32,346 bases of DNA from assembly GCA_030426845.1 (NCBI GenBank), contig JAUHXR010000070.1, positions 1 to 32,346 on the forward strand, given 5' to 3'. The notes beneath the pieces were generated by a model, which saw only the letters and a program-made list of their open reading frames with translations, was not told the origin of the DNA and ran no database searches. Every line of letters starts with the position of its first letter. Position 1 is the first letter of the stretch. A program made the position numbers and the translations under genes. This document shows positions 10,960 to 25,981 of the stretch, piece after piece. This DNA is from Polyangia bacterium (GTDB lineage Bacteria > Myxococcota_A > Polyangia > Polyangiales > Sandaracinaceae).

Positions 10960-12321
10960 ATGCGCCATGTGCTTTGCGCGGCTCTCGCCCTCCAGGCGCT
11001 CGTCGGCTGCAGCCAGGCCGTCCCCTACGAACCGACGGGCTCACGATCCGGGAGCCGCCTCCAGGTCGAGCGCTACGCGACCGCGGCGGACGGCCCGATG
11101 ACCCACCGGCGCGTCCTCGACACCGAGCTCGGCATGGAGTGCGTGTTCCGGCGCGCGGCCGACGGCGTCGAGCGCTGCCTGCCAGCCACCGTCGACCGCA
11201 TCCGGTACGCCGACCCCGACTGCGAGGTCCCGATCACCGCCGCGATCTACTCCTGCGAGCCCGATCAGTTCATCTCCGGCTACCCGTCGACCCCGCGGCT
11301 CTCCTACGAGCAGGTATGCCCCGAGAGCCCCGGCCTCGAGGCCTACGCGGTCGGCCCCGAGGTGGAGCTCAGCGATCCCGACGGCAACTACTCCCTCTTC
11401 GCGATCGTGAACGGCGCCTGCGAGGAGATCTTCCCCGAGCTCGGCCACTGGCGGTCGCTGACGCCGCTGCCCGTCGAGCAGTTCGTGGCCGGTGAGCGGC
11501 GCCGGCTGCCGGCCGCGGGCGAGCGCATCGGGCGCGAGTACATCGCGGGCGAGGACGGGTCCGAGTCCCCGGCTGGCCACTACGACAACGAGACCGGCCG
11601 GAGCTGCACAGCGTACGGCGCGAACGAGGCGTGGCGCTGTGTCCCCGGCGAGCTGCGCCAGGACTTCGGCGACTGGTCCACGGAGTGCGCCGCTACGCGC
11701 CTCGCGTCGACGAGCTGCGACCCGGCGTCGATCACGTTTCTCGATCAGTACGTCTGGCGGAACACCTGCGAGGAGGAGGAGGAGCCGCACTTCTTCGCGC
11801 CGGAGCGAACGGTCACGCCGGAGGAGGTGACGGCGGCCTGCCCCGAGTACATCCACGAAGACAACCCGACCGGCACGCGCCTTTACGCCCTCCGCCCGAT
11901 CGACGCGGAGCTCGCGCGGTTCCCGTCGACGCGAATCGGGACGGGCCGGCTGCGCTGGTTCCCGGAGCGCGGCGAGGACGGCTACTTCGACGCGGAGCTC
12001 GGAGAGCCGTGCCGGCCGTTCGAGATCGAGGGCCAGCTCCGGTGCCTCCCCGGCCGGGTCACCCGCGCCGACGTCTTCAGCAGCTCGGACTGCACTCAGC
12101 CCGCGATCCAGGACGGGACGCTCTGCGGCGAGTACTTCGTCACGTTCCCCGGCAGGCTCTGCGAAGGGGGGGCCCAGGTGTCCCGCCGGGGCGCGCCGCT
12201 CGATCAGGTCTTCCTGCAGTACCCCGTGGATTGCCGAGCGGCCACCTACACGCGCGATCTGTACGCGCTCGAGCGCGTCCCCCCGGAGACCTTCGCGCTC
12301 ATGGACGTCGTCGTCGACTGA
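10960..12321 (+). CDS. Repeat-module lipoprotein A (paralogue of the next gene)
   Basis: Predicted lipoprotein of 453 residues with signal peptide ending in ALVGC (Cys17). The mature protein consists of about three copies of a cysteine module. The pattern is Arg-Leu-x-x-x-Tyr/Phe, a D-x-E-L stretch, Cys, a short strand, then R/W-RCLP or RCVP, an aromatic stretch, and a final D-x-x-C. Examples are DTELGMECVFR...VERCLP, GHYDNETGRSC...WRCVP and DAELGEPCRPF...LRCLPGR. Similar RCLP modules are common in secreted proteins of large-genome myxobacteria and have no known activity. The end, VPPETFALMDVVVD, is nearly identical to that of the downstream gene. It follows the CapA-like gene by 18 bp, so it could be cotranscribed with it. 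Confidence 0.8.
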   Translation: MRHVLCAALALQALVGCSQAVPYEPTGSRSGSRLQVERYATAADGPMTHRRVLDTELGMECVFRRAADGVERCLPATVDRIRYADPDCEVPITAAIYSCEPDQFISGYPSTPRLSYEQVCPESPGLEAYAVGPEVELSDPDGNYSLFAIVNGACEEIFPELGHWRSLTPLPVEQFVAGERRRLPAAGERIGREYIAGEDGSESPAGHYDNETGRSCTAYGANEAWRCVPGELRQDFGDWSTECAATRLASTSCDPASITFLDQYVWRNTCEEEEEPHFFAPERTVTPEEVTAACPEYIHEDNPTGTRLYALRPIDAELARFPSTRIGTGRLRWFPERGEDGYFDAELGEPCRPFEIEGQLRCLPGRVTRADVFSSSDCTQPAIQDGTLCGEYFVTFPGRLCEGGAQVSRRGAPLDQVFLQYPVDCRAATYTRDLYALERVPPETFALMDVVVD

Positions 12322-12473: not shown

Positions 12474-13847
12474 ATGCGTCACGAACCTTGCTTACTGCTC
12501 CTCGCGGTCGCGCTGACCGGCTGCCCGTCCTCGTTCTCACCGGGGGACGACGCGGTCCGCTCCGGAAGCCGCCTGCGGGTCGAGCGCTACGAGCCGGCGG
12601 AGGGGGGCCCGGCGATGTACCGGGACGTGTTCGACACCGAGATTGACGACGTCTGCGCGTTCACGCTCGCCACCGACGGGCGCTGGCGGTGTCTTCCCCA
12701 GCGCGGGACGCTCGTGTACTACCGGGACGGCGCGTGCACGCAGCCGATCGTCGAGGTGACTGACTGCCCCCTCGGCCGCTGGAGGACGGGACGCGCGGGA
12801 CCCCCGGCTGCATGCGACGAGGAAGTTGCGCTCCAGGCGTATGAGGTCGGGGCGATCGTGGAAGTCGCGCAGCCCTACCGGGTCGGCCCCGAGGGCTGCG
12901 TGGAAGCCAGCTCCGGCCCCGACGCGGGGTGGGCCGCGCTCACGCCCGTGGGTCCGGAGCGCTTCGTCGCGGCCGAGCGGCGCGTGCTCCCCCAGGACGA
13001 TGCGCGGATCGGGCGCGTGGTCTTCGCGGCCGAGGATGGATCCGTGTCGCCCGGGGGTTTCTACGACCACATGGAGGACGCACCCTGCGCTCCTCAGGGC
13101 CCGGGTGGACCACGCGCCTGCACGACGAGGCGACCGACGAGCGCGGTGCTGACGGGCCCCGATTGTGAAGCGGCCCTCGGACAGACGAGCTGCGAGCCCG
13201 AAGGGACGCTGTTCTTCACGCAGCCGGCGCGCTCGGACGGATGCGGCTTCGCGCCGTGGCGCGTCTACGCCGCCGACGGCCCTCCCGTGTCCGTCGACCC
13301 CGCGATCGAGATCTGCCCACGCTGGCGAACGCTGGAGGACATCCCGAGCTACCGTCTGCGCGCGATCGACGACGAGCTGGCCCGGTTCTCGGATACCCCC
13401 GTCGGCGACGGGCGCCTCCGCCGATACCCCGAGCGGAGGGGCTTCTTCAGCCATCTCGGCGAGGACTCGCCGTACCTGGACACCGAGCTGAGCCTCGGGT
13501 GCACGCCGATGCAGGTCGGCAGCGAGACTCGTTGCGTGCCCGTCGATCGAGTGGCGCGGGAGCTCAGCACCGGCACGTTCGTCGATCCCGGTTGCACTCG
13601 TGCCGCGCTTCGGGAGCCGTCCGACGAGCCGGTGTGCGGGACGTACGTCGCGGTGCCCTCGACCCCGACCACCTGCGTGGTGAATGAAGTGGAGGTCTAC
13701 CGTCGCGGCGCCGAGCACCCCGAGGGCTTCGTCCGCGACGACTCCGGCGCCTGCGTTACCGACAGCCCAGGGGTGCCGCTTCGGTACGTCGAGCTCGAGC
13801 CCGTCCCCCCCGAGACCTTCGCGCTCATGCGCGTCGTCACCGACTGA
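12474..13847 (+). CDS. Repeat-module lipoprotein B (tandem paralogue)
   Basis: Predicted lipoprotein of 457 residues: MRH start and lipobox ALTGC (Cys17), like its neighbour. It shares the opening RSGSRLRVERYE, the segments FVAAERRVLP, IGRVVFAAEDGSVSPGGFYD and RLRAIDDELARF, and the closing PVPPETFALMRVVTD with the upstream gene, so the pair arose by tandem duplication. It has three cysteine/RCLP-type modules; the middle one has CTTRRPTS in place of RCLP, so that repeat is degenerate. The 152-bp gap between the paralogues contains no gene, but has a short direct repeat GTAGCCTC at 12449-12456 and 12461-12468 just before the start. It is convergent with the GMC gene, 27 bp apart. Function unknown. 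Confidence 0.8.
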   Translation: MRHEPCLLLLAVALTGCPSSFSPGDDAVRSGSRLRVERYEPAEGGPAMYRDVFDTEIDDVCAFTLATDGRWRCLPQRGTLVYYRDGACTQPIVEVTDCPLGRWRTGRAGPPAACDEEVALQAYEVGAIVEVAQPYRVGPEGCVEASSGPDAGWAALTPVGPERFVAAERRVLPQDDARIGRVVFAAEDGSVSPGGFYDHMEDAPCAPQGPGGPRACTTRRPTSAVLTGPDCEAALGQTSCEPEGTLFFTQPARSDGCGFAPWRVYAADGPPVSVDPAIEICPRWRTLEDIPSYRLRAIDDELARFSDTPVGDGRLRRYPERRGFFSHLGEDSPYLDTELSLGCTPMQVGSETRCVPVDRVARELSTGTFVDPGCTRAALREPSDEPVCGTYVAVPSTPTTCVVNEVEVYRRGAEHPEGFVRDDSGACVTDSPGVPLRYVELEPVPPETFALMRVVTD

Positions 13848-13874: not shown

Positions 13875-15530
13875 TCAGCTCAGCCGGTCCGCCAGCGACG
13901 CGAGGCCCTGCCCCTCGACCAGCCGGTCCGCGATCGACTCGGCCACCGCCGCGATCGTGAGCGACGGATTGACACCGAGCGCGCCGGGGATCGACGCGCC
14001 GTCGATCACGAAGAGCCCCGGGTTGGCGAAGACCTCGCCGTTCGGGTCGACCACCCCGTGGTCGCGCGACTCCGCCATCGGGCAGCCACCGAGCGGGTGG
14101 CTCGTGCTCACCGTCCCGTCCTTGCGGTAGCCGTCGAGGAAGAGCTCGCCGCCGAGCGCGGCGTAGATCCGGCGCATCGCGTCGACCGCCGCGCTCCAGC
14201 GACGCTCGGTCGCGGGGTGGGTGTCCGGCCAGCGCACCACCGGCGTGCGACCGTCGGGCCCGAGCTCGATCCGCCCCTCGGACTCGTCCAGCGCGAGGCA
14301 GCCCATCGTCAGCATCCGCCGCGAGAACGTCGTGAGGCGCTGCATGTAGCCCTCGCCCCAGTGCGGCACCGGCTGGCCGTCCGGGTTGATCCGCGGCCCC
14401 GTGCTGCCGCGCCCGAGCGCGCCCGGATCCTGAGCCGGGCGGAGCGTCGCGAACTGCTCGAGCGCGAGGTACATCGGCGCGGCGTAGAACGGGATCAGCA
14501 GGAACTGGTGCTCCGGCCAGAAGCTCGGACAGAAGCTCGACATCGGCTTGCCCTTGTGGCCCTCCACCGCGAGCTCGAGCTCCGGCCCGACGATCCCCGT
14601 GACGCCGTAGTCGCCGTTGCCGCTGAGCTGCGCGCCGACCGCGCTCGAGAGCTCCCTCGCGCCCTCGAAGGCGTCTCGAGAGCGGAGCAGGAGCCCCGTC
14701 GACGCCACGCAGCCGGCCGCCACCACGAGGACGCGGCACTCGCGCTCGAACGCGCGCGCGACCCCGCTCCGCCGGTCCACGCCGATCACCGCGTAGCCGT
14801 CCCGCGTCGGCTCGACCCGCTCGACCTCGCAGCCGGTCTGGAAGGTGACCCCGGCCGCGAGCGCGCGCGACAGGTAGTTCTTCGTCAGGTCCTGGCGCCC
14901 CTCGAAGCGCTGCCCCTGCGCCCACCAGCCCTCGTTCGCGTCGTCCTGATCGGCGAGCTTGAGCGGGGCCGCGGTCGCGCCGATCCGGCGGCAGCCCTCG
15001 GCGAAGACGAGGTCGCGCTTGGTCGCGAGCTGCCAGTGCGGCACCTCCGCGTCGGTCCAGCGCATCCGGTTCACGCGGAGCTCGGCCTCGACCCGCGCGT
15101 AGACCGGGTCGAGCGCGGCGCGCGAGTAGATCGACGGCCACTGGCGGCGCCCGCCCGCGTCGCGCTCGAACACCATCGACGGCGCGCGCAGGCTCACCCC
15201 GAGGTAGAGGTTGCTCCCGCCGCCGACCCCCGTGCCCGCGAGCACGTTCATGCTCGGGACGCCCGGCCGGTACGCGCCGTCCGGGTCGGTGAAGAGCTCG
15301 GCGACCCGCGCGAGGTAGTCGGGCTCGAGCGACTGGCGGTTGCGCGTGCCGTCCTCGGTGAGGGGGAGGCCGGCCGAGTCGGGGTCGAAGCGCCCCGTCG
15401 GGTCGTCGCCCTTCTCGAGGACTTCGACCGTGTAGCGCCCGCCGAGCGCGTCGCGCACGTGCTCGCCGATCCGCGCGGCCATCACCGCGCCGCCGAAGCC
15501 CGAGCCGACGATCACGACGTCCGCGTACAT
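13875..15530 (-). CDS. GMC-family FAD oxidoreductase (cholesterol-oxidase/gluconate-dehydrogenase-like)
   Basis: Flavoprotein of 551 residues. The N-terminus is the FAD-binding ADVVIVGSGFGGAVMAARI, followed by the GMC block NVLAGTGVGGGSNLYLGV. The C-terminal block has HPLGGCPM (His478) and GVNPSLTIAA (Asn521), the expected catalytic His/Asn pair of GMC enzymes, so it should be active. The HPLGGC form is typical of cholesterol-oxidase-like and membrane dehydrogenase-like members, which oxidise an alcohol group. It has no signal peptide of its own. The ATG at 15530 shares one base with the stop codon of the upstream Tat-lipoprotein gene (TGATG). In gluconate 2-dehydrogenase the Tat signal of the small subunit carries the folded FAD subunit out of the cell, and the same piggy-back export is likely here. 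The frame stays open upstream of the start but is a shadow. Confidence 0.92.
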   Translation of the reverse strand: MYADVVIVGSGFGGAVMAARIGEHVRDALGGRYTVEVLEKGDDPTGRFDPDSAGLPLTEDGTRNRQSLEPDYLARVAELFTDPDGAYRPGVPSMNVLAGTGVGGGSNLYLGVSLRAPSMVFERDAGGRRQWPSIYSRAALDPVYARVEAELRVNRMRWTDAEVPHWQLATKRDLVFAEGCRRIGATAAPLKLADQDDANEGWWAQGQRFEGRQDLTKNYLSRALAAGVTFQTGCEVERVEPTRDGYAVIGVDRRSGVARAFERECRVLVVAAGCVASTGLLLRSRDAFEGARELSSAVGAQLSGNGDYGVTGIVGPELELAVEGHKGKPMSSFCPSFWPEHQFLLIPFYAAPMYLALEQFATLRPAQDPGALGRGSTGPRINPDGQPVPHWGEGYMQRLTTFSRRMLTMGCLALDESEGRIELGPDGRTPVVRWPDTHPATERRWSAAVDAMRRIYAALGGELFLDGYRKDGTVSTSHPLGGCPMAESRDHGVVDPNGEVFANPGLFVIDGASIPGALGVNPSLTIAAVAESIADRLVEGQGLASLADRLS

Positions 15531-16360
15531 CAGTAGAGGTCCCCGTTCGCGTCGACGATCGCCGAGAGGTCGTCGCCCGGGGTCGGCTCTGGCGCGACGT
15601 TGTAGGTGTAGTCGTCGAGCACGCCCATCCGGGCCAGCGCCCCGAGGTCCTCGGTGCTCGCGTCGACGAGCCGCCCGTCGATCGTCCGCGGGTAGCCGCG
15701 CACCGCGACGCCCGCCTCGCGGTCCTCGAACGCGGGGAAGCCGAGCGCGCGCAGGCCCGCGTCGCTCCGGATCGCGCCGAGGTAGGCGATGAACCCGACC
15801 GCCCGCACGAACGGGAGCCACGGCGCGCGCTCGGGCTGCGCGAACGCCCGCGCGACCACCTGCCGCTGGAGATCGGACGGCAGGTTGGCGAAGCGTGTCA
15901 GCGGCCGCTCCGTCGCGGCGAGCGCGTCGAGGTCGGCGTCGATCACCGCGCGGAGCGCGACGTCGAAGCCCTCGGCCACCCCGAGCACCGCGCCCGGCAG
16001 CTCCGGCACGAGCCCGAGGCGACGCGCCGCCGGGAGGAAGGTCGCGAGCCGCATCGCCTCGAACGCCTCGACCTCGGCCGCCCCTGGCCGGGTCACCCGG
16101 CCGGCCTCGTCGCGCGCGGTTGGGATCAGCACGTCGAGCAGCGCCCGGATGTTCGTCTCGGCCGCGCGGTCCGCGTCCGACGGGCCGATCGTCTCGACGG
16201 GGACGGGCGGCAGGTCGTTGCGCTCGCCGGGGACGATCTCGGTCGCGCAGCCGCTCGCCACCCCGAGCCCGAGCGCGCTCAGCGTGCGCAAGACGAGCCG
16301 CCGCGAGACCGGGGCTCGTGAAAGGCTCTCGTAAGGCTGGCGTGCTCCGCGTGCAGGCAT
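15530..16360 (-). CDS. Tat-exported lipoprotein, gluconate 2-dehydrogenase subunit 3-like
   Basis: Protein of 276 residues. The N-terminus carries a twin-arginine signal (SRRLVLRTLS, Arg20-Arg21) and a lipobox VASGC (Cys38). The mature part has features of the gluconate 2-dehydrogenase subunit 3 family: a helical bundle with ALLDVLIPTARD near the start and FVRAVGFIAYLGAIRSDAG plus RGYPRTIDG near the end. In known complexes this subunit binds the FAD-containing GMC subunit and exports it through Tat. The partner GMC gene follows directly with a 1-base overlap. There is no cytochrome c subunit next door; the nearest candidate is the di-heme lipoprotein 10 kb away. The membrane side after export is unknown, but a periplasm-facing lipoprotein is expected. 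Confidence 0.85.
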   Translation of the reverse strand: MPARGARQPYESLSRAPVSRRLVLRTLSALGLGVASGCATEIVPGERNDLPPVPVETIGPSDADRAAETNIRALLDVLIPTARDEAGRVTRPGAAEVEAFEAMRLATFLPAARRLGLVPELPGAVLGVAEGFDVALRAVIDADLDALAATERPLTRFANLPSDLQRQVVARAFAQPERAPWLPFVRAVGFIAYLGAIRSDAGLRALGFPAFEDREAGVAVRGYPRTIDGRLVDASTEDLGALARMGVLDDYTYNVAPEPTPGDDLSAIVDANGDLY

Positions 16361-16479: not shown

Positions 16480-18408
16480 GTGAATCGATCCGAGCCGCGA
16501 CCGCGCCGCCTCGTCGTCCTCGCCGCCCTGACCCTCGGGGTGGCGGGCTGCGCGGCCGCCCCGCCGACGGGGCCGGGGACCGAGGAGGTCGCGTTCCAGT
16601 GCGGCGATCCGGCGCCCGGCGAGGGCTACGAGTACGTCGTGATCGGCTCGGGCGCGGGCGGCGGCCCGGTCGCGGCGCGGCTCGCGCGCGCCGGCCACCG
16701 GGTGCTCCTCGTCGAGGCGGGCGAGGACGTCGGCGACCGGCTCGAGTACCAGGTCCCCGCGCTCCACGCGTTCTCGACCGAGCACCCGGACCTCGCCTGG
16801 CACTACTACGTCGACCACCACGCCGAAACGGGCGTCGACGAGACGGACTCGAAGCACACCCCCGACGGGATCCTCTACCCGCGCGGCAGCGCGCTCGGCG
16901 GCTCCACCGCGGTCAACGCGCTCGTGACCGTCCTGCCGTCGCGCTCCGACTGGAACCGCCTCGCCGAGCTCACCGGCGAGCCCGCGTGGCGCGCCGCGGC
17001 GATGGATCCCTACGTCGACCGGGTCTTCGAGTGGCTGCCCACCACGATCCCCGATCCGACCCTCGCGATGGACGACCCCGACGTCGTCCAGTTCCTCCTC
17101 GCCGCGGCCAACGAGCTCGGCGCGGGCATGCGCGCCCCGAACGGCGTCGAGCCCTTCGTCGAGGTGAGCTCCACCGCCGAGCTGTCGCGCCTCCTCACCC
17201 AGGACGTGAACGCCGCGCTCCGCCGCGCCGAGACCACCGGCGTCTACCGCTTCCCCCTCGCCACCACCCCCGACGGCCACCGCTCGGGCACGCGCGAGCT
17301 GCTGCTGGAGACGGTGGCGGCCGGCTGCCCGCTCGAGATCCGCACCGGCACCTTCGCGACCCGGATCCTCCTCGACCGCTCCGGCATGGTCCCGCGCGCG
17401 GTCGGCGTCGAGCTGGCCCGGGGCCGCGGCCTCTACGGCGCCGCCCTCGACCGACAGAACCCGCCCACCGAGCGCGAGAACGTCGGCGCGAGCCGCGAGG
17501 TCATCCTCAGCGCGGGCGCCTTCAACTCGCCGCAGCTCCTCATGCTGAGCGGGATCGGCGAGCCCGAGCACCTGCGCGAGCACGGGGTCGAGGTGGCCGC
17601 GGCGAGCCCCGGGGTCGGGCAGAACCTCCAGGACCGCTACGAGGTCGCGGTGGTCAGCGAGCTGCCGCGCGAGCTCAGCCTCACCGCGCCCTGCCTCATC
17701 GGCGTCGGCCCGCTCGCGGAGGACCCGTGCCTCGACGAGTGGCGCGCGGGGCGCGGCGTCTACACGACGACCGGCTTCCTCGCGTCGGCGCTGCAGCAGA
17801 GCGACGGCGCAGCGCTCGCCGACCTGCAAGTCTTCGCGACACCCGGCGACGCGCGCGGCTACTTCCCCGGCTACGCCGAGGCCGCGGTCCAGCGCCGCGA
17901 TCGCTTCAGCTGGGTCGTCCTAAAGGCCCACACCCGGAACCGCGACGGCGAGGTCCGCCTGCGGAGCGCCGACCCGTTCGAGCCGCCGTCGATCGCGTTC
18001 AACTACTTCGACGAAGCGGACCCCGCCAACGACCCCGACATGCGCGCGCTGATCGAGGCGGTGCGGTTCATCCGCGGGGTCGAGGATCGGGTGCGCGAGC
18101 GCGAGCCGAGCCTGAGCGAGGTGTGGCCGGGCGACGACGTCCAGACCGACGCGGAGCTCGCCGCGTGGATCCGCCGCGAGACCTGGGGCCACCACGCGTC
18201 CTGCACCGCCCCGATGGGGCGGGACGACGACCCGATGGCCGTCCTCGACCCGCGGATGCGGGTGCGCGGGGTGCGCGGGCTGCGGGTGGTGGACGCGTCG
18301 ATCTTCCCGGAGATCCCGGGCACGTTCATCGCGTTCCCGATCTACATGGCGTCGGAGCGCGCGGCCGACTTCATCCTCGAGGACCTCGAGACCGGGGAGG
18401 CGCCGTGA
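16480..18408 (+). CDS. Lipoprotein GMC oxidoreductase with altered active-site position
   Basis: GMC flavoprotein of 642 residues, exported as a lipoprotein. The signal RPRRLVVLAALTLGVAGC (Cys24) contains twin arginines, so Tat export of the folded FAD enzyme is plausible. FAD motif: YVVIGSGAGGGPVAARLARA (Gly56, Gly58, Gly61), then the GMC block YPRGSALGGSTAVNALV. The C-terminal domain has GHHASCTAPMG with His572 as the usual catalytic base. The second catalytic position, 44 residues later as in choline oxidase (His466/Asn510), is Phe616 in PGTFIAFP, where Asn or His is normal. It may belong to a GMC subgroup with altered chemistry. The GTG start at 16480 has weak GGAG-like sequence upstream. 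It is the first gene of the seven-gene run, and its stop overlaps the next start (GTGA). Confidence 0.9.
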   Translation: MNRSEPRPRRLVVLAALTLGVAGCAAAPPTGPGTEEVAFQCGDPAPGEGYEYVVIGSGAGGGPVAARLARAGHRVLLVEAGEDVGDRLEYQVPALHAFSTEHPDLAWHYYVDHHAETGVDETDSKHTPDGILYPRGSALGGSTAVNALVTVLPSRSDWNRLAELTGEPAWRAAAMDPYVDRVFEWLPTTIPDPTLAMDDPDVVQFLLAAANELGAGMRAPNGVEPFVEVSSTAELSRLLTQDVNAALRRAETTGVYRFPLATTPDGHRSGTRELLLETVAAGCPLEIRTGTFATRILLDRSGMVPRAVGVELARGRGLYGAALDRQNPPTERENVGASREVILSAGAFNSPQLLMLSGIGEPEHLREHGVEVAAASPGVGQNLQDRYEVAVVSELPRELSLTAPCLIGVGPLAEDPCLDEWRAGRGVYTTTGFLASALQQSDGAALADLQVFATPGDARGYFPGYAEAAVQRRDRFSWVVLKAHTRNRDGEVRLRSADPFEPPSIAFNYFDEADPANDPDMRALIEAVRFIRGVEDRVREREPSLSEVWPGDDVQTDAELAAWIRRETWGHHASCTAPMGRDDDPMAVLDPRMRVRGVRGLRVVDASIFPEIPGTFIAFPIYMASERAADFILEDLETGEAP

Positions 18409-19640
18409 GGCGCGCCGTCACGATCGTCTTCGCCGCCGCCCTCCCCGTCGCGGTGGCCGCGGGCTGCGCAGACTTCGGGCCGACCTGCAACGACCTCGCG
18501 GCGGATCTCGCGTTCTGCGACGTGCGCCCGGTGGAGCTCCGCTGCGACGAGCTGAGCGCGACCGAGCGGAGCGAGCTCGAGGCGGAGATGATCGCGCGCG
18601 GCTGCGGCGCGGTCTGGGTCACCGACGCCGAGACGCAGCAGACGCGCGTCGACCCCCGCATGTGCACCGCGTTCGGCTGGGACTGCCCGGAGGCGAGCGG
18701 GCCGGACCACGACTTCGCGCCGGAGGCGACGGTGGTGTTCGTCGGCGGGATCGACGGCCGCGCCGAGTTCGACTGGAACCCGCGCGTGATCGCCGAGGTG
18801 GAGCGGCGGACTGGCGCTCGCGTGGTGCACGCCCCGTTGCCTCCGTGGAGCCCCGTGCCGACCCGCGCGGCCGCCCTCGCCGACGCGCTCGCGCAGATCG
18901 ACGGGCCGGTGAACCTGATCTGCTACGCGGTCTCGGGCCTCGACTGCCGCTTCCTCGTCAGCCCGGGCGGGCTCTACGCGACCGAGCCCGCGCGGCAGGC
19001 CGAGACCGCGGCCCGGGTCCGCAGCATCACCACCGTGGCCACCGCCCACCGCGGCACCGAGGTCGCGACGGTGGCGCTCCGCGCGCTCGAGGGTGACCGC
19101 GGCGACGAGCTCCTCGACGTGCTCCTCGGCGACCAGGCCGGCAGCGGCGCGCGGCTTCCGAGCGAGCCCGTCGTCCGCGAGACCTTGCGCGGGCTCGGCA
19201 ACGGCTACGCCGAGCTGTTCAACGCCGAGGTCGTCGACGCGGACGGCGTCTACTACCAGTCCTTCGCCGGGGTCAGCTTCATCCTGGGCCAGCCATGGTT
19301 CCCGAGCGACGAGACGGTCCGGCGCTTCTGCGGCCAGGCCACCGACCCGCTCGTCCGCTACGACCTCGGGGTCCGCGACTTCATGAGCGAGCCGCTGCTG
19401 GTGAGCGCGCCCTTCGCCGGCCGCACCCTCGGCTCGGGCGGGCTCACCGTCGTGAGCCCGAGCGACGGACAGGTCTCGGTCGACAGCGCGCGCTGGGGCG
19501 CGTTCCGCGGCTGCCTCCCCGCCGATCACTACGACGTGGTCGGCCAGCTCGAGGACCGCGGTCCCGACCCGATCACCGGCTTCGACGCGGCCGGCTTCTA
19601 CACGGCCGTGGTCGGCGACCTCGCGGCGAGGGGGCTGTGA
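18405..19640 (+). CDS. Lipase-fold lipoprotein lacking the nucleophile serine (pseudo-lipase)
   Basis: Lipoprotein of 411 residues (lipobox VAAGC, Cys21) with a cysteine-patterned N-terminal domain, then an alpha/beta-hydrolase domain homologous along its length to the next gene's lipase. The nucleophile elbow reads [20 protein letters not shown] where the paralogue has [20 protein letters not shown]. The catalytic Ser is Ala175 and the preceding His is Tyr. Asp354 (PSDGQV) and His375 (ADHYD) remain, at the same 179- and 21-residue spacing as in the active paralogue. It is probably not a serine hydrolase; it may bind lipid or partner the active lipase. The GTG start overlaps the upstream stop by 4 bp and has GGGGAGG before it. 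The frame is intact, so this is not a decaying pseudogene. Confidence 0.88.
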
Positions 19641-20899
19641 TGCGTCGCTGCGTCGTGCACGCCCTCCTCGCGCTCGCGGCCACGCTCACCTTGGGCGGCT
19701 GCGCCGACCTGCTCGCGTCCCAGCAGCGCTGCGACTACCTCAACGACCGCGTCGCGATGTGCTTCGGCGACGACTTCGGCGACATCGCCTGCGACGGGGT
19801 CAGCGACCGCGATCTCGAGACCGTGATCGGCGCCCTCGATCGCTCGGGCTGCGCGTTCGTCCGCGAGGCGGTGCCGCTCGACGGCGACCTCACCGCCGCG
19901 ACCTGCCGCCTCTTCGGCGAGGGCTGCCTGACCTCGTTCCAGCCGCCGCCCGCGCATCGCCCGAACCCGCTGCCGGTCGTGCTCGTGAACGGCATCGACG
20001 TCTCGCCCGCGTTCCGCTACTCGGACCGCATCCTCGACACGATGCGGGTCGAGGGCGGCCACGACGTCCACCTCGCGATCCTGACGCCCTACGAGACGCC
20101 GGCGCGCCGCGCGCGGATCCTGTGGGACCGCGTCCAGGAGATCGTCGCGGACACCGGCGCCCCGCGCGTCCACCTGATCTGCCACTCGCTCGGCGGGCTC
20201 GACTGCCGCTACCTCGTGAGCCCGGGGGGCCTGCACCACGAGGTCGAGGCGAGCCACACCGACATCGTCTCGCGCGTCGCCTCGATCACCACCTTCTCGA
20301 CCGCGCACCGCGGCACGCGCGCCGCGGACGTGAGCCTCGGCCTGCTCCCCGATTACGCGCAGATCGAGGGCGTCAACGCGCTCGCGACCTACCTCGGCGA
20401 CTGGTTCACCGAGCGCGAGCTCGAGGAGGACGTGCACCTGCGCGAGTCGATCGCGGCGTTGAGCCTCGCCCAGGCGAGCGCATTCAACGTCGACGTGCCC
20501 GACGCGGACGGCGTCTACTACCAGTCCTTCGCCGGCTTCAGCCGCCCGTTCGGCGCCGCGCCCGACGGCTTCGACGCGCGCGTCGCCGAGGCCTGCGCGG
20601 CCGACGGCGAGGACGGGATGCGCTACTTCCACGGCGTCCACGACTACATGGCGACCTCGCTCATCCCGAGCGGCGACATCGTCGGGCGCCCCGAGGTCGA
20701 GGACGGCCCCGAGATCCCGAACGACGGCCTCGTCGCGATCGAGAGCGCGCGCTGGGGCCGCTTTCGCGGCTGCGTGCCCGCCGATCACATGGAGCAGCTC
20801 GGCCAGCGCGACATCCCCGACGTCAACGTGCGCACCGGGTTCGACGTCGCGCGCTTCTACGCCGAGATCGCGGCCGAGCTCGGGGAGCTGGTCCCGTGA
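19640..20899 (+). CDS. Family I-type triacylglycerol lipase/esterase, lipoprotein
   Basis: Lipoprotein of 419 residues (lipobox TLGGC, Cys21). After an N-terminal domain with cysteines spaced as in the upstream paralogue comes a Pseudomonas/Burkholderia-type lipase domain. [10 protein letters not shown] is the first strand and oxyanion region (Asn for the usual His), [15 protein letters not shown] is the nucleophile elbow (Ser183), [13 protein letters not shown] carries the acid (Asp362), and [10 protein letters not shown] carries His383. The Asp-His spacing of 21 is close to the 22 of Burkholderia lipases. It should hydrolyse long-chain esters at the cell surface or periplasmic face. No lipase-specific foldase gene is in the window. 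The ATG at 19640 shares one base with the preceding stop codon (TGATG). The disulphide-type Cys in CHSLGGLDC is shared with its paralogue. Confidence 0.9.
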
Positions 20900-21483
20900 G
20901 GCCCCGCCTGATCCGGCCCGTGGTCCTCGCGCTCGCCCTCGTCGGCTGCGTGCCCCTGGGCATCGCGCCGGACATGGGCGAGCCGGCCGACCCCTGCGAT
21001 GAGGCCGCCCTGCTCTTCGAGTCGTGCGGCGCCTCGCTCGCGTTCCTCTACCCGGAGCGCTGCGCGGGCGCGTCGGCAGTGATCGCCGAGTGCGTGCTCG
21101 ACCACGGGCGCACCTGCGACGACCTCGCGACCCTCGACGTCGAGGACTGCGTCGTCCAGCAGACCGAGCGTGACGGCTACGACGAGCCCCTCGCCGTCGA
21201 CTTCGTGACCGTCGTGCCCCCGGTGGAGGAGCCGCCCGAGACGGGGCCCGAGGACACCGACCTCGCCTGCGCCGACGGCGTCGACAACGACGGCGACGGC
21301 TACTTCGACTGCGACGACCTCGACTGCCGCGAGGGGGCTGGCGTCACGGTCTGCGGCGAGTCGACCGACGCGCTCTGCGCCGACGACCTGGACAACGACG
21401 AGGACGGCCTCGTGGACTGCGCGGATCCGTCCTGCGCGGGCCGCACCGCCCCGTGCCCCGGAGGAACCGATGCCCGATCCTGA
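20896..21483 (+). CDS. Calcium-repeat lipoprotein
   Basis: Lipoprotein of 195 residues (lipobox ALVGC, Cys18). The N-terminal domain has C-x9-C cysteine spacing like the two lipase-type neighbours. After a Pro/Glu-rich linker ([14 protein letters not shown]), the tail has two acidic repeats, [15 protein letters not shown] (about 125-144) and [15 protein letters not shown] (about 161-180). These are EF-hand-loop-like D-x-D-x-D-G calcium motifs with a closing cysteine, as in thrombospondin type 3-like repeats. It could bind calcium and anchor or regulate the lipase partners; Pseudomonas-type lipases are calcium-dependent. The GTG start overlaps the lipase stop by 4 bp (GTGA). Its own end overlaps the transporter start by 14 bp. 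Confidence 0.82.
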
Positions 21484-23887
21484 GCTCTCCCGTCCGTCCC
21501 GCGGCTTCGAGCGCGCCGGCGCGGCCCTGGGCCGCCTGGTGCTCCGGCATCGCGCGGCCACGATCGTCCTCAGCCTCCTGGCCTGCGCCGCGCTCGGCGC
21601 GGGCGCGATGCACCTCTCCTTCTCCACCGACTACCGGATCTTCTTCGCGCCCGACGATCCCCAGCTCGCGAGCTTCGCGGCGCTCGAGGACCAGTTCACC
21701 CGAACCGACAACGTGGTGTTCGTCATCCGGGCGCGCGAGGGCGACGTCTTCGCGCCCGGCCCCCTCGCGGCCGTCCAGGAGCTCACCGAGGCGGGCTGGG
21801 AGCTCCCCTTCGCCGCGCGCGTCGACTCGCTCACGAACTTCCAGCACAGCTACGCGCTCGACGAGGACCTGGTCGTCGAGGAGCTGGTGCACGCGCCGGC
21901 CGGCGACCTCGACGCGGCGGAGCTGTCGCGGCTCCGCGAGGTCGCGCGCGCCGAGCCGCTCCTCGTCGGCGGCCTCCTCGCGGACGACCTCGAGGCCGCG
22001 GGGGTGAACGTCGTGCTGCGCCTGCCGCGCGAGGACCCGGCGGAGGTCACCGAGGCCGCGGCGGCGGCGCGCGCGCTCGTGGCCCGCGTCTCGGCCGCGC
22101 ACCCCGAGGTGGAGATCCGCGCGAGCGGGATGGCGCTCATGAACGACGCGTTCATGGAGGCCTCCATTCAGGACATGGTCCGCATCGTCCCGGTCATGTA
22201 CCTGGTGATGATCCTCGTGCTCGCGGCGCTCCTGCGCAGCGCGAAGGCCACCGCGGTGGTGGTCGCGATGGTCGCCGCGTCCTGCGCGGTGGTGATGGGC
22301 GTCGGGGGCTGGCTCGGCTACCCGCTGACCCCGCCGACCGCGGCCGCGCCGACGATCGTCCTGACGCTCGCGATCGCCGACTCGGTCCACATCTTCCTGA
22401 GCTGGCAGCAGGCCCAGCGCGACGGCTTGAGCGCGCACGACGGCCTGGTCGAAGCGCTCCGCGTGAACCTGCGCCCCGTGTTCCTCACGAGCCTCACCAC
22501 GATGATCGGCTTCCTCGCGTTGAACTTCGCCGAGGCGCCCCCCTACTGGCACCTCGCCAACATGACCGCGGCCGGTATCGCGGCCGCGTTCCTCCTCTCG
22601 GTCACGCTCCTGCCCGCGATCCTCGGCTCGCTCCACATCCCCGTCCGCGCCCAGGCCACGCGCCGCGCCGCGTGGCTCGACGGGCTCGCGGGCTGGGTCC
22701 TGCGCCACCGCGTCGCGCTCCTCGCGGCCGGCGCAGCCAGCCTCGTCGCCTTCGGCGCGCTCGCGGCCCGGCTCGAGACCAACGATCAGTTCGTCGACTA
22801 CTTCGACGACAGCATCGCGTTCCGCCCGGACAGCGAGTTCCTCATGGAGCACCTGACGGGCATCTACCAGCTCGACTTTCAGCTCGAGAGCGGGGAGGAG
22901 GGCGGCGTCAACGACCCTACCTACCTGCGGACGCTCGAACGCTTCACCGCGTACCTCCGCCAGCAGCCCGAGGTGGAGCACGTCTACGGCTACGCCGACA
23001 TCATCGCCCGCGTGAACCAGAACATGCAGGGCGACCGGCCGGGCACCCGCCGCGTCCCCCGCGACCGCGAGCTCGCGAGCCAGTACCTGCTGCTCTACGA
23101 GCTGTCGCTGCCGTACGGCCGCGACCTCAACGACCGCCTCAGCATCGACCGCTCCTCCAGCCGCCTCACCGTGACGGTGAAGGACCTCTCGAGCCAGGAG
23201 CTGCGCGCGTTCAACCACCGCGCCGAGGCGTGGCTCCAGCACCACGCGCCCGCGTCGATGCACGCGCGCGCGATCGCGCCGGTCGTGATCTTCAGCGCGC
23301 TGAGCGACCGCAACACCGAGGCGATGATGCGGGGCAACGTCGCGTCGCTGCTCCTGATCAGCCTCTGCCTCATCTTCGCGCTCCGCAGCGCGAAGCTCGG
23401 CCTCCTGAGCCTGCTGCCGAACATCGTCCCGATCGTCTTCGGCTACGGGCTCTGGGCGCTGCTGTTCGGCGAGATCAACATCGTCGCCTCCGTCGCCGGC
23501 GCGATCTGCCTCGGCATCATCGTCGACGACACCATCCACTTCCTCGCCAAGTACCGCATCGCGCGCATGGAGGGCGCGAGCGCAGAGGACGCGGTGCGCC
23601 GCGTGATCCGGACGGTCGCGCCGGCCCTGATCGTGACCTCGCTCGTGCTCATCCTCGGCTTCGGAGTGCTCACCGCCTCGGGCTTCCAGATGAACAGCTA
23701 CCTGGGCCTCCTCACGGTGTTCGTCGTCGCCTCCGCGCTCGTCGCGGATCTGCTCCTGCTCCCCGCGCTCCTCGTGTGGCTCGACGGCCGCCCGCGCTCC
23801 GCGCCGGCGCGCCGCGAGCCGCCCCCGCCGGCGTCCCACCCGAGCGGGAGCTTCCCCCTCACCGCGAGCGGCGAGCACCCCATCTGA
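21470..23887 (+). CDS. MMPL/RND-superfamily lipid exporter (HpnN-like)
   Basis: Inner-membrane protein of 805 residues with a two-fold repeat, each half having one membrane helix, a periplasmic domain and five helices. Helix 1 is [17 protein letters not shown]. The first helix bundle includes [17 protein letters not shown] and the family motif [11 protein letters not shown]. The second half has [18 protein letters not shown] and [15 protein letters not shown], the conserved acidic RND/MMPL segment for proton coupling. The family exports lipids such as hopanoids (HpnN) and mycolates (MmpL). It overlaps the upstream gene by 14 bp and has a strong GAGGAA ribosome-binding site. Next to a LolA-like carrier and a barrel protein, it probably forms a three-part hydrophobic-cargo export path. 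The charged Pro/Arg tail after the last helix is cytoplasmic. Confidence 0.92.
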
Positions 23888-23952: not shown

Positions 23953-24747
23953 ATGAAGAAGAAGCTCACCCTCGCCGCGCTCGCCGCGGCCCTGATGGCC
24001 CTCGTCGTCGTCCCCGCCCTCGCGGTCGGCCAGCGCGACCCGGGCACCCAGATCGCGCAGGAGCTGGCGCAGCGCAACCGCGGCTACGGCGACATGCGCG
24101 CGGAGGTCGAGATGGTCCTCCGCACCGCGGACGGCCGGGACAGCCGCCGCGCGATCCGCCTGACCTCGCTCGAGCGGCCCGCGGCCGACGAGGGCGACCT
24201 CTCGATGATCGTCTTCGACAGCCCGCGCGACGTCGCGGGGACCGCGCTCCTCTCGCACGCCGGCGTCGGCGAGGACGACCAGCAGTGGCTCTACCTGCCA
24301 GCCGCGCGCCGCACCCGGCGCATCTCGAGCGGCAACATGACCGGCCCGTTCGTCGGCAGCGAGTTCAGCTACGAGGACATCACCGGCGGCGAGGTCGACA
24401 AGTACACGTGGCGACTCCTCGGCGAGGCGCCCTGCGGCCAGGCGACCTGCCGCCGGCTCGAGACGCGGCCCCGCTACGAGGGCTCGGGCTACGCGCGCCG
24501 CGTCGTCTCGATCGACGCCGAGTACCGCATTCAGCAGATCGAGTTCTTCGATCGCCGCGACCAGCGGATGAAGACGCTGACCTACTCCGACTACCGCCGC
24601 CACGGGCGCTTCTGGCGCGCGCACCGCTGGACGATGGTCAACCACCAGAACGGCAAGTCGACCACGCTCGTCTTCCGCAGCCTCGAGCTCGGCACCGGGC
24701 TCAACGAGCGCGACTTCACCCGGGCCGCGCTCGAGCGCGCCCGCTGA
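23953..24747 (+). CDS. LolA-like outer membrane lipoprotein-sorting protein
   Basis: Periplasmic protein of 264 residues: signal peptide (ALMALVVVPALA-V), then the LolA-like half-barrel fold of proteins annotated as outer membrane lipoprotein-sorting protein. Recognisable parts are the start (ELAQRNRGYGDMRAEVEMVL), MIVFDSPRDVAGTALLSH, WLYLPAARRTRRISSGN, GSEFSYEDITG and the end RAHRWTMVNHQNGKSTTL with ERDFTRAALER. This subfamily usually stands next to MMPL/RND transporters, as here, and is thought to ferry hydrophobic cargo from the transporter to the outer membrane. It is not the housekeeping LolA. The start ATG has AAGGAA upstream. The gap of 65 bp after the transporter, with a repeated CGCGCCGGCC stretch at about 23907-23925, is the largest within this run of genes. 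Confidence 0.9.
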   Translation: MKKKLTLAALAAALMALVVVPALAVGQRDPGTQIAQELAQRNRGYGDMRAEVEMVLRTADGRDSRRAIRLTSLERPAADEGDLSMIVFDSPRDVAGTALLSHAGVGEDDQQWLYLPAARRTRRISSGNMTGPFVGSEFSYEDITGGEVDKYTWRLLGEAPCGQATCRRLETRPRYEGSGYARRVVSIDAEYRIQQIEFFDRRDQRMKTLTYSDYRRHGRFWRAHRWTMVNHQNGKSTTLVFRSLELGTGLNERDFTRAALERAR

Positions 24748-24787: not shown

Positions 24788-25981
24788 ATGCGAACTACGC
24801 ATCTCCTCGGACTGCTGCTCGCCGCCCTCGCCTCCGCGGGGTGCGGGGTGACCGCGCAGCTCCGAGGGCACGCCGCGCTCGACGGGCGGCTCTACCTCCA
24901 GCCCAACCGCTACGCGCGCCAGGCGGGCGGCTCGGGCCCCAGCGTCATGGCCGAGCCGGAGCTCTCGCTCCAGGACGACAACCGCGAGCACACCGCGACG
25001 TTGCGCCCGTTCGGCCGCTTCGATCCGTTCGACCCGTACCGGACCCACTGGGACATCCGCCGCGCCGACTACGAGCTGACCGACGGCGAGTGGGAGCTCG
25101 CGCTCGGCCAGGGCCAGTTCAACTGGGGCCGCCTCGAGGGGCTCCGGCTCGTCGACGTGATGAACCAGCGCGACCTCGTCGAGGACGTCGACGGAAGCCA
25201 GAAGCTCGGCCAGCCCTACGTGCAGCTCGGCCTGATCACCGGCGACTGGACGCTGCGGGTCTTCTACCTGCCCTACTTCCGCGAGCGCACGTTCCCCGGC
25301 GTCCGGGGTCGCCTCCGCTCTCCGCTCGTGGTGGACACGGGCGCGCCGGTCTACGAGTCCGCGCTCGGCGCGTTCCACCCCAACGTGGCCGCGCGGGCCG
25401 AGGTCAACGACGGCGACCTCGACCTCGGCCTCGCGGTGTTCAGCGGGACGGCGCGCGAGCCGCGCTTCCTCGCGCAGATCAGCGACCAGGACGTCGTGCC
25501 CGGCTACCCGATGATGCAGCAGGCCTCGTTCGACGCCTCGCTCACCGTCGACGCGACCGTGTTCAAGCTCGAGGCGGTCGGGCGGCTCTACGGCGCCGAC
25601 CTCGCGCCGAGCGCCGCCGTCGCGGGCGGGCTCGAGCACACGCTGTGGGACATCGAGGGGAGCGGCGTCGACCTCACCTTCGCGCTCGAGTACCGCTACG
25701 ACTACCGGCCGCGGCGCGCGCCCTTCACGTTCTGGAACAACGACGTCTTCGCCGGGGTGCGCCTCGCGTTCAACGACGCGGAGGCGACCGAGATCCGCGC
25801 CGGCGCCATCACCGACCTCTTCACCGGCTTCACCTTCGCGACGGTGCGGGCCGAGCGCCGGCTCGACGAGCACTTCAAGCTCTTCCTCGAGGGGCGCTTC
25901 TTCCTCGGCGGCGAGGGCCAGCTCGAGAGCGCGTTCCTCAGCGATCAGTATCTGCAGGCGCGGCTCGCGTTCTATCTGTGA
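24788..25981 (+). CDS. Outer-membrane beta-barrel protein, end of the lipid operon
   Basis: Protein of 397 residues with an N-terminal signal. Both a lipobox-like SAGC and a signal-peptidase-I site (GVTA-Q) are possible; for a barrel the latter is more likely. The mature part shows alternating strands with aromatic girdle residues (WELALGQGQFNWGRL, VFYLPYFRERTFPG, FALEYRYDYRPRR) and ends in LQARLAFYL, a near-canonical barrel C-terminus. It looks like the DUF1302-type barrels found with RND transporters and periplasmic carriers, but I cannot confirm the family. It is probably the outer-membrane end of the export path. The last 44 bp overlap the LysR gene end on the opposite strand. Confidence 0.82.
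   Translation: MRTTHLLGLLLAALASAGCGVTAQLRGHAALDGRLYLQPNRYARQAGGSGPSVMAEPELSLQDDNREHTATLRPFGRFDPFDPYRTHWDIRRADYELTDGEWELALGQGQFNWGRLEGLRLVDVMNQRDLVEDVDGSQKLGQPYVQLGLITGDWTLRVFYLPYFRERTFPGVRGRLRSPLVVDTGAPVYESALGAFHPNVAARAEVNDGDLDLGLAVFSGTAREPRFLAQISDQDVVPGYPMMQQASFDASLTVDATVFKLEAVGRLYGADLAPSAAVAGGLEHTLWDIEGSGVDLTFALEYRYDYRPRRAPFTFWNNDVFAGVRLAFNDAEATEIRAGAITDLFTGFTFATVRAERRLDEHFKLFLEGRFFLGGEGQLESAFLSDQYLQARLAFYL

Follow-up and report, generated by a model that had tools for sequence, protein, structure and literature searches.

A conserved putative pseudo-lipase encoded beside its predicted active paralogue in myxobacterial genomes

Pseudoenzymes are well studied in eukaryotes. As far as we can judge from a limited literature search, clean bacterial pseudoenzymes with an active sister in the same conserved operon seem to be scarce. 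In this work a tandem pair of lipase-like genes, designated A and B, was analyzed within a stretch of 32,346 nucleotides from a Polyangia bacterium, which is referred to as the window. The bacterial lipases of class I.1/I.2, with representatives from Burkholderia, Pseudomonas aeruginosa, Acinetobacter (LipA) and Proteus, align with A and B over the whole hydrolase domain. They have the Ser/Asp/His triad in common with B, whereas A lacks the nucleophile, and they differ from both proteins, to which they are about 20-24% identical, by the absence of a Cys-rich N-terminal extension (about 80 residues) and of a lipobox-like Cys.

Pairs of lipase-like paralogs are described for plants, in which EDS1 forms heterodimers with PAD4 or SAG101 via the hydrolase domains and takes part in signaling (PMC9528080). 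By analogy these paralogous proteins may serve as a model for a possible pairing of A and B, but they function in plant immunity and carry an additional EP domain, and the comparison with A and B applies to the level of the fold. Non-catalytic insect lipases and yolk proteins possess incomplete triads and are proposed to bind or carry lipids (PMC7240578). Like A they combine a lipase fold with an incomplete triad; unlike A they belong to the animal neutral and acid lipases and lack an active copy as operon partner. Regarding the gene neighborhood, clusters of the AmeABCD type, which comprise a DUF1302 outer-membrane protein, a DUF1329/LolA protein and an RND transporter and are involved in monoterpene metabolism (PMC6394551), show the same architecture as a trio of genes in the window. 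However, lipases are not mentioned in that publication, and the outer-membrane protein of the window has no Pfam match. Lipase pseudoenzymes are already known from eukaryotes; a bacterial one resembling A and B appears to be unreported, and no report of such a pair was found in the open-access literature.

The features of the window to which the following analysis refers are:

13875..15536, minus strand: GMC2, a GMC oxidoreductase in the divergent part of the cluster
15530..16360, minus strand: small protein with a twin-Arg and lipobox-like N-terminus, conserved beside GMC2
16480..18408, plus strand: GMC1, a GMC-family oxidoreductase with a lipobox-like N-terminus, whose stop shares 4 nt with the start of A
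18405..19640, plus strand: gene A, putative pseudo-lipase lipoprotein of 411 aa with Ala175, Asp354 and His375
18927..18929, plus strand: codon GCG of Ala175 in gene A; the position is Ser in B and every other homolog inspected
19640..20899, plus strand: gene B, predicted lipase and lipoprotein of 419 aa with the complete triad Ser183/Asp362/His383
20896..21483, plus strand: small lipoprotein, rich in Cys and carrying acidic double-disulfide repeats (NF033662); the start is uncertain
21470..23887, plus strand: MMPL/RND transporter (HAE3-like)
23953..24747, plus strand: periplasmic LolA-like protein (PF17131, DUF1329-related)
24788..25981, plus strand: predicted outer-membrane protein, start uncertain (24788 or 24848)

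Both lipase-like frames are open, A from GTG at 18405 to TGA at 19640 and B from ATG at 19640 to TGA at 20899, and the two genes have one base in common at their junction (TGATG). Over the full length (419 columns) A and B share 35% identity, a likeness which at E = 1e-56 (BLASTP) is not due to chance. The elbow of A reads [11 protein letters not shown] and carries Ala175 (GCG) in the nucleophile column opposite Ser183 (TCG) of B, while Asp354 and His375 are matched to Asp362 and His383. An earlier note on this DNA had described an intact frame of A and a close alignment of the two proteins around the elbow, and both descriptions are borne out. The same note had emphasized identical spacings of the catalytic residues. 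In the window this is true, since 179 residues lie between Ser or Ala and Asp and 21 between Asp and His in both proteins, and the spacing of 21 is invariant in all 12 tandem proteins; the longer one, in contrast, ranges from 171 to 187 in the orthologs, so the equal values of 179 are partly coincidence and were not used as evidence. A lipobox-like Cys21 is present in A and B and is aligned in 11 of 11 rows of the model alignments.

AlphaFold2 models of both proteins were of moderate confidence (mean pLDDT 68.4 for A and 67.7 for B), with poor confidence in the loop of the catalytic Asp. Their closest matches were class I.1/I.2 bacterial lipases, which they matched over the whole hydrolase domain with Z scores of 19-20 (A) and 20-22 (B); the first 100 residues with their many conserved Cys lie outside the structural matches. 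A profile of the family matched solved Burkholderia lipases with E about 1e-42, placing the Ser column on the nucleophile of the GHSQG motif; the correspondence of the Asp and His columns to the Burkholderia NDG and to the His after it is confined to a second, weak segment. Based on the modeled alpha/beta-hydrolase fold and a triad with Ser in the nucleophile elbow, B is predicted to be a class I.1/I.2 lipase with full triad. The same fold was also found in mS79 of the Tetrahymena mitoribosome (PDB 6z1p, chain BK; Z 16.8 to A), which is perhaps another non-catalytic use of it.

Searches for the pair within the same order and class revealed five further genomes (G080, G143, G145, G129 and G209), so that the sample comprises six genomes, mostly MAGs. 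Four of the five are also available as named records (JANYHK010000039, JANXVA010000119, JAQBQJ010000220, JAGQIK010000052), described as Myxococcales bacterium or Labilithrix MAGs. A scan of the contigs with A alone as query yielded no relative; relatives were found with a two-row alignment as query, which also returned the loci L085 and L086, discarded as not being tandem pairs. Among 318 genomes of the class, with the best few candidates considered per genome, A was never found without B nor B without A, and both were found in these six genomes only.

In all six genomes the first copy carries Ala in the nucleophile column, within the elbow C[YW]AV[SGA]G, although the A proteins of the other genomes are only about 42-47% identical to that of the window. 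The Ala codon is GCG in five genomes and GCC in one. The second copy has Ser in six of six genomes, within the elbow CHSLGG, and likewise keeps Asp362 and His383 throughout. Asp and His are also retained in every A copy, so Ser is the sole member of the triad that was lost. Other inspected homologs, which are non-tandem and stand in other gene contexts, carry Ser; further Ser-bearing paralogs are located outside the cluster in the window's own genome (L041:8915-10177 on contig C240 and L049:195-1295 on contig C100). The earlier note had named two observations that would speak against a genuine loss, a Ser in orthologs of the first gene and a shifted Ser acting as catalytic replacement, and the claim survived both comparisons. 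With Ala common to all A copies, a private mutation or sequencing error is rejected. The position of the shifted Ser reads S/G/A/G/G/G in the six A copies; a Ser which is present in the window only, and replaced by Gly or Ala elsewhere, is not a conserved replacement. Cys173 is an unlikely nucleophile as well, the same Cys being present in B and in near single homologs. A thus represents a homolog of an enzyme which lacks an essential catalytic residue and is kept across species, and from its sequence we classify it as a conserved pseudo-lipase that is not expected to form an acyl-enzyme.

In a maximum likelihood tree of 28 proteins, the A copies (100/100) and the B copies (99/99) form separate clades which are sisters to each other (95/89). 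The tree supports one duplication and one loss of Ser, and this loss occurred before the sampled myxobacterial families diverged. A is under purifying selection, with a dN/dS as low as that of B: for the single genome pair G143 and G145, at a dS of about 0.6-0.7, values of 0.22 (A), 0.27 (B), 0.25 (GMC1) and 0.21 (GMC2) were obtained. Within the whole set of six genomes, A has diverged somewhat further than B (mean identity 0.47 vs. 0.54). The suggestion of the earlier note that A is selected for something other than Ser-based hydrolysis is hence borne out as far as selection is concerned, and a non-hydrolytic function is supported at the level of the sequence. That A is a decaying copy, a sequencing error or an assembly artefact can practically be dismissed, given the same Ala in six genomes, the intact frames, the low dN/dS and the conserved gene order.

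The retained Asp and His in all six A copies might be taken to indicate that A is a Ser-independent enzyme, in which a His/Asp dyad acts as general base in another reaction. Such an enzyme could also account for part of the 13 positions that are invariant in A and never common to B, among them His142, Trp148, Val176 and Tyr376, the last of which lies beside the catalytic His; a Tyr or Trp at position 174, preceding Ala175, is a further A-specific feature. These residues suggest a site under constraints of its own. However, Asp and His are part of the motif WGxFRGCxPADH, which is kept throughout the family, so their retention may be structural and is not strong evidence for catalysis. Moreover, of the 62 family-core positions, defined as near-invariant in 18 Ser-bearing homologs, 50 are conserved in five or all six A copies. 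We therefore consider a Ser-independent enzyme quite unlikely.

Comparison of the flanking sequences revealed the same gene order in five genomes: GMC1, A, B, the Cys-rich lipoprotein, the MMPL transporter, the LolA-like protein and the outer-membrane protein on one side, GMC2 and the small twin-Arg/lipobox protein on the divergent side. In G129 the remainder is rearranged and the core of GMC1, A and B is intact. The twin-Arg/lipobox protein is probably a small subunit or export partner of GMC2, which itself matched a cholesterol oxidase model only weakly and far below the cut-off. For the outer-membrane protein, which is conserved after the LolA-like gene, a barrel was deduced from the sequence. 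The trio of LolA-like, outer-membrane and MMPL genes also occurs at loci that lack both the lipase pair and the GMC genes (L115:11430-16344; L116, L117, L119, L120) and therefore looks like a module which was joined by the lipase pair and GMC1. In G143 and G145 MMPL and LolA-like protein are encoded in one frame of about 1070-1080 aa (L087:12580-15786, L083:10101-13343) with an internal signal-peptide-like stretch, representing either a fusion or a missed stop. The repeats of the Cys-rich lipoprotein, assigned to NF033662 in the window, appear similar by eye in G209 (L084:10409-11134) and are absent in G080, G143 and G145. Two adjacent genes of the window (10960-12321 and 12474-13847) both match DUF7481 (PF24297) and possibly derive from a further tandem duplication.

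The tightest junction within the cluster is that between GMC1 and A, with an overlap of 4 nt in all six genomes, compared to A and B, which overlap by 1 nt in four genomes and are separated by 3 or 16 nt in the other two. Together with the persistence of GMC1, A and B in the rearranged G129, this would fit a role of A as chiefly the partner of GMC1 rather than of B, namely as a lipid-binding subunit presenting an alcohol or sterol-like substrate. Overlapping genes indicate coupling and not contact, though, and B is just as inseparable from A, so we regard this assignment as unlikely.

The earlier note had proposed three roles for A, of which lipid binding and dimerization with the lipase may apply. 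The third, that A substitutes for a foldase, can be extended to a folding helper or secretion partner of B. Some class I.1/I.2 relatives of B depend on a foldase of their own (e.g., 2es4, 9g8u), and, as another difference from these lipases, no member of the Lif family (PF03280) over the cut-off was found in the six genomes, with one sub-threshold match in G000; this search had no positive control, as no control genome gave a signal. On the other hand, Proteus-type I.1 lipases fold without the aid of a chaperone (PMC3530535), and many Ser-bearing homologs, including close ones, occur without a pseudo-lipase neighbor. These points weakly disfavor the foldase role, which we consider very unlikely.

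Taken together, A is in our view probably a conserved pseudo-lipase which derived from a duplication of B and serves in the envelope as a partner that binds lipids without hydrolyzing them. The loss of activity, the lipid binding, the physical pairing as well as the pathway and its direction are what we infer from the comparisons described above. A goes back to a second copy of the lipase gene B, its nucleophile changed from Ser to Ala ahead of the split of the sampled families, and it has been retained since then. According to our proposal, it would pair, as a lipase-fold lipoprotein of the envelope, most likely with B and/or the co-translated GMC1, and its task would be to retain a lipid ester, or the alcohol released from it, or to pass either of them on without cutting. 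B would cleave the lipid ester, the GMC enzymes would oxidize the released alcohol, and the trio of MMPL, LolA-like and outer-membrane proteins would provide transport. The retained Asp and His could confer residual or different chemistry on A. A more far-reaching version, which we put forward tentatively and consider doubtful, is an obligate heterodimer of active B and inactive A, co-translated with GMC1, whose dead subunit binds or passes on the lipid or performs a Ser-free His/Asp reaction; if true, it would be, to our knowledge, the first bacterial case.

The pair of A and B represents a simple system for testing how a dead paralog acquires a job. It also points to an undescribed envelope pathway of myxobacteria, in which the hydrolysis of esters, the oxidation of alcohols and the transport of lipids may come together.
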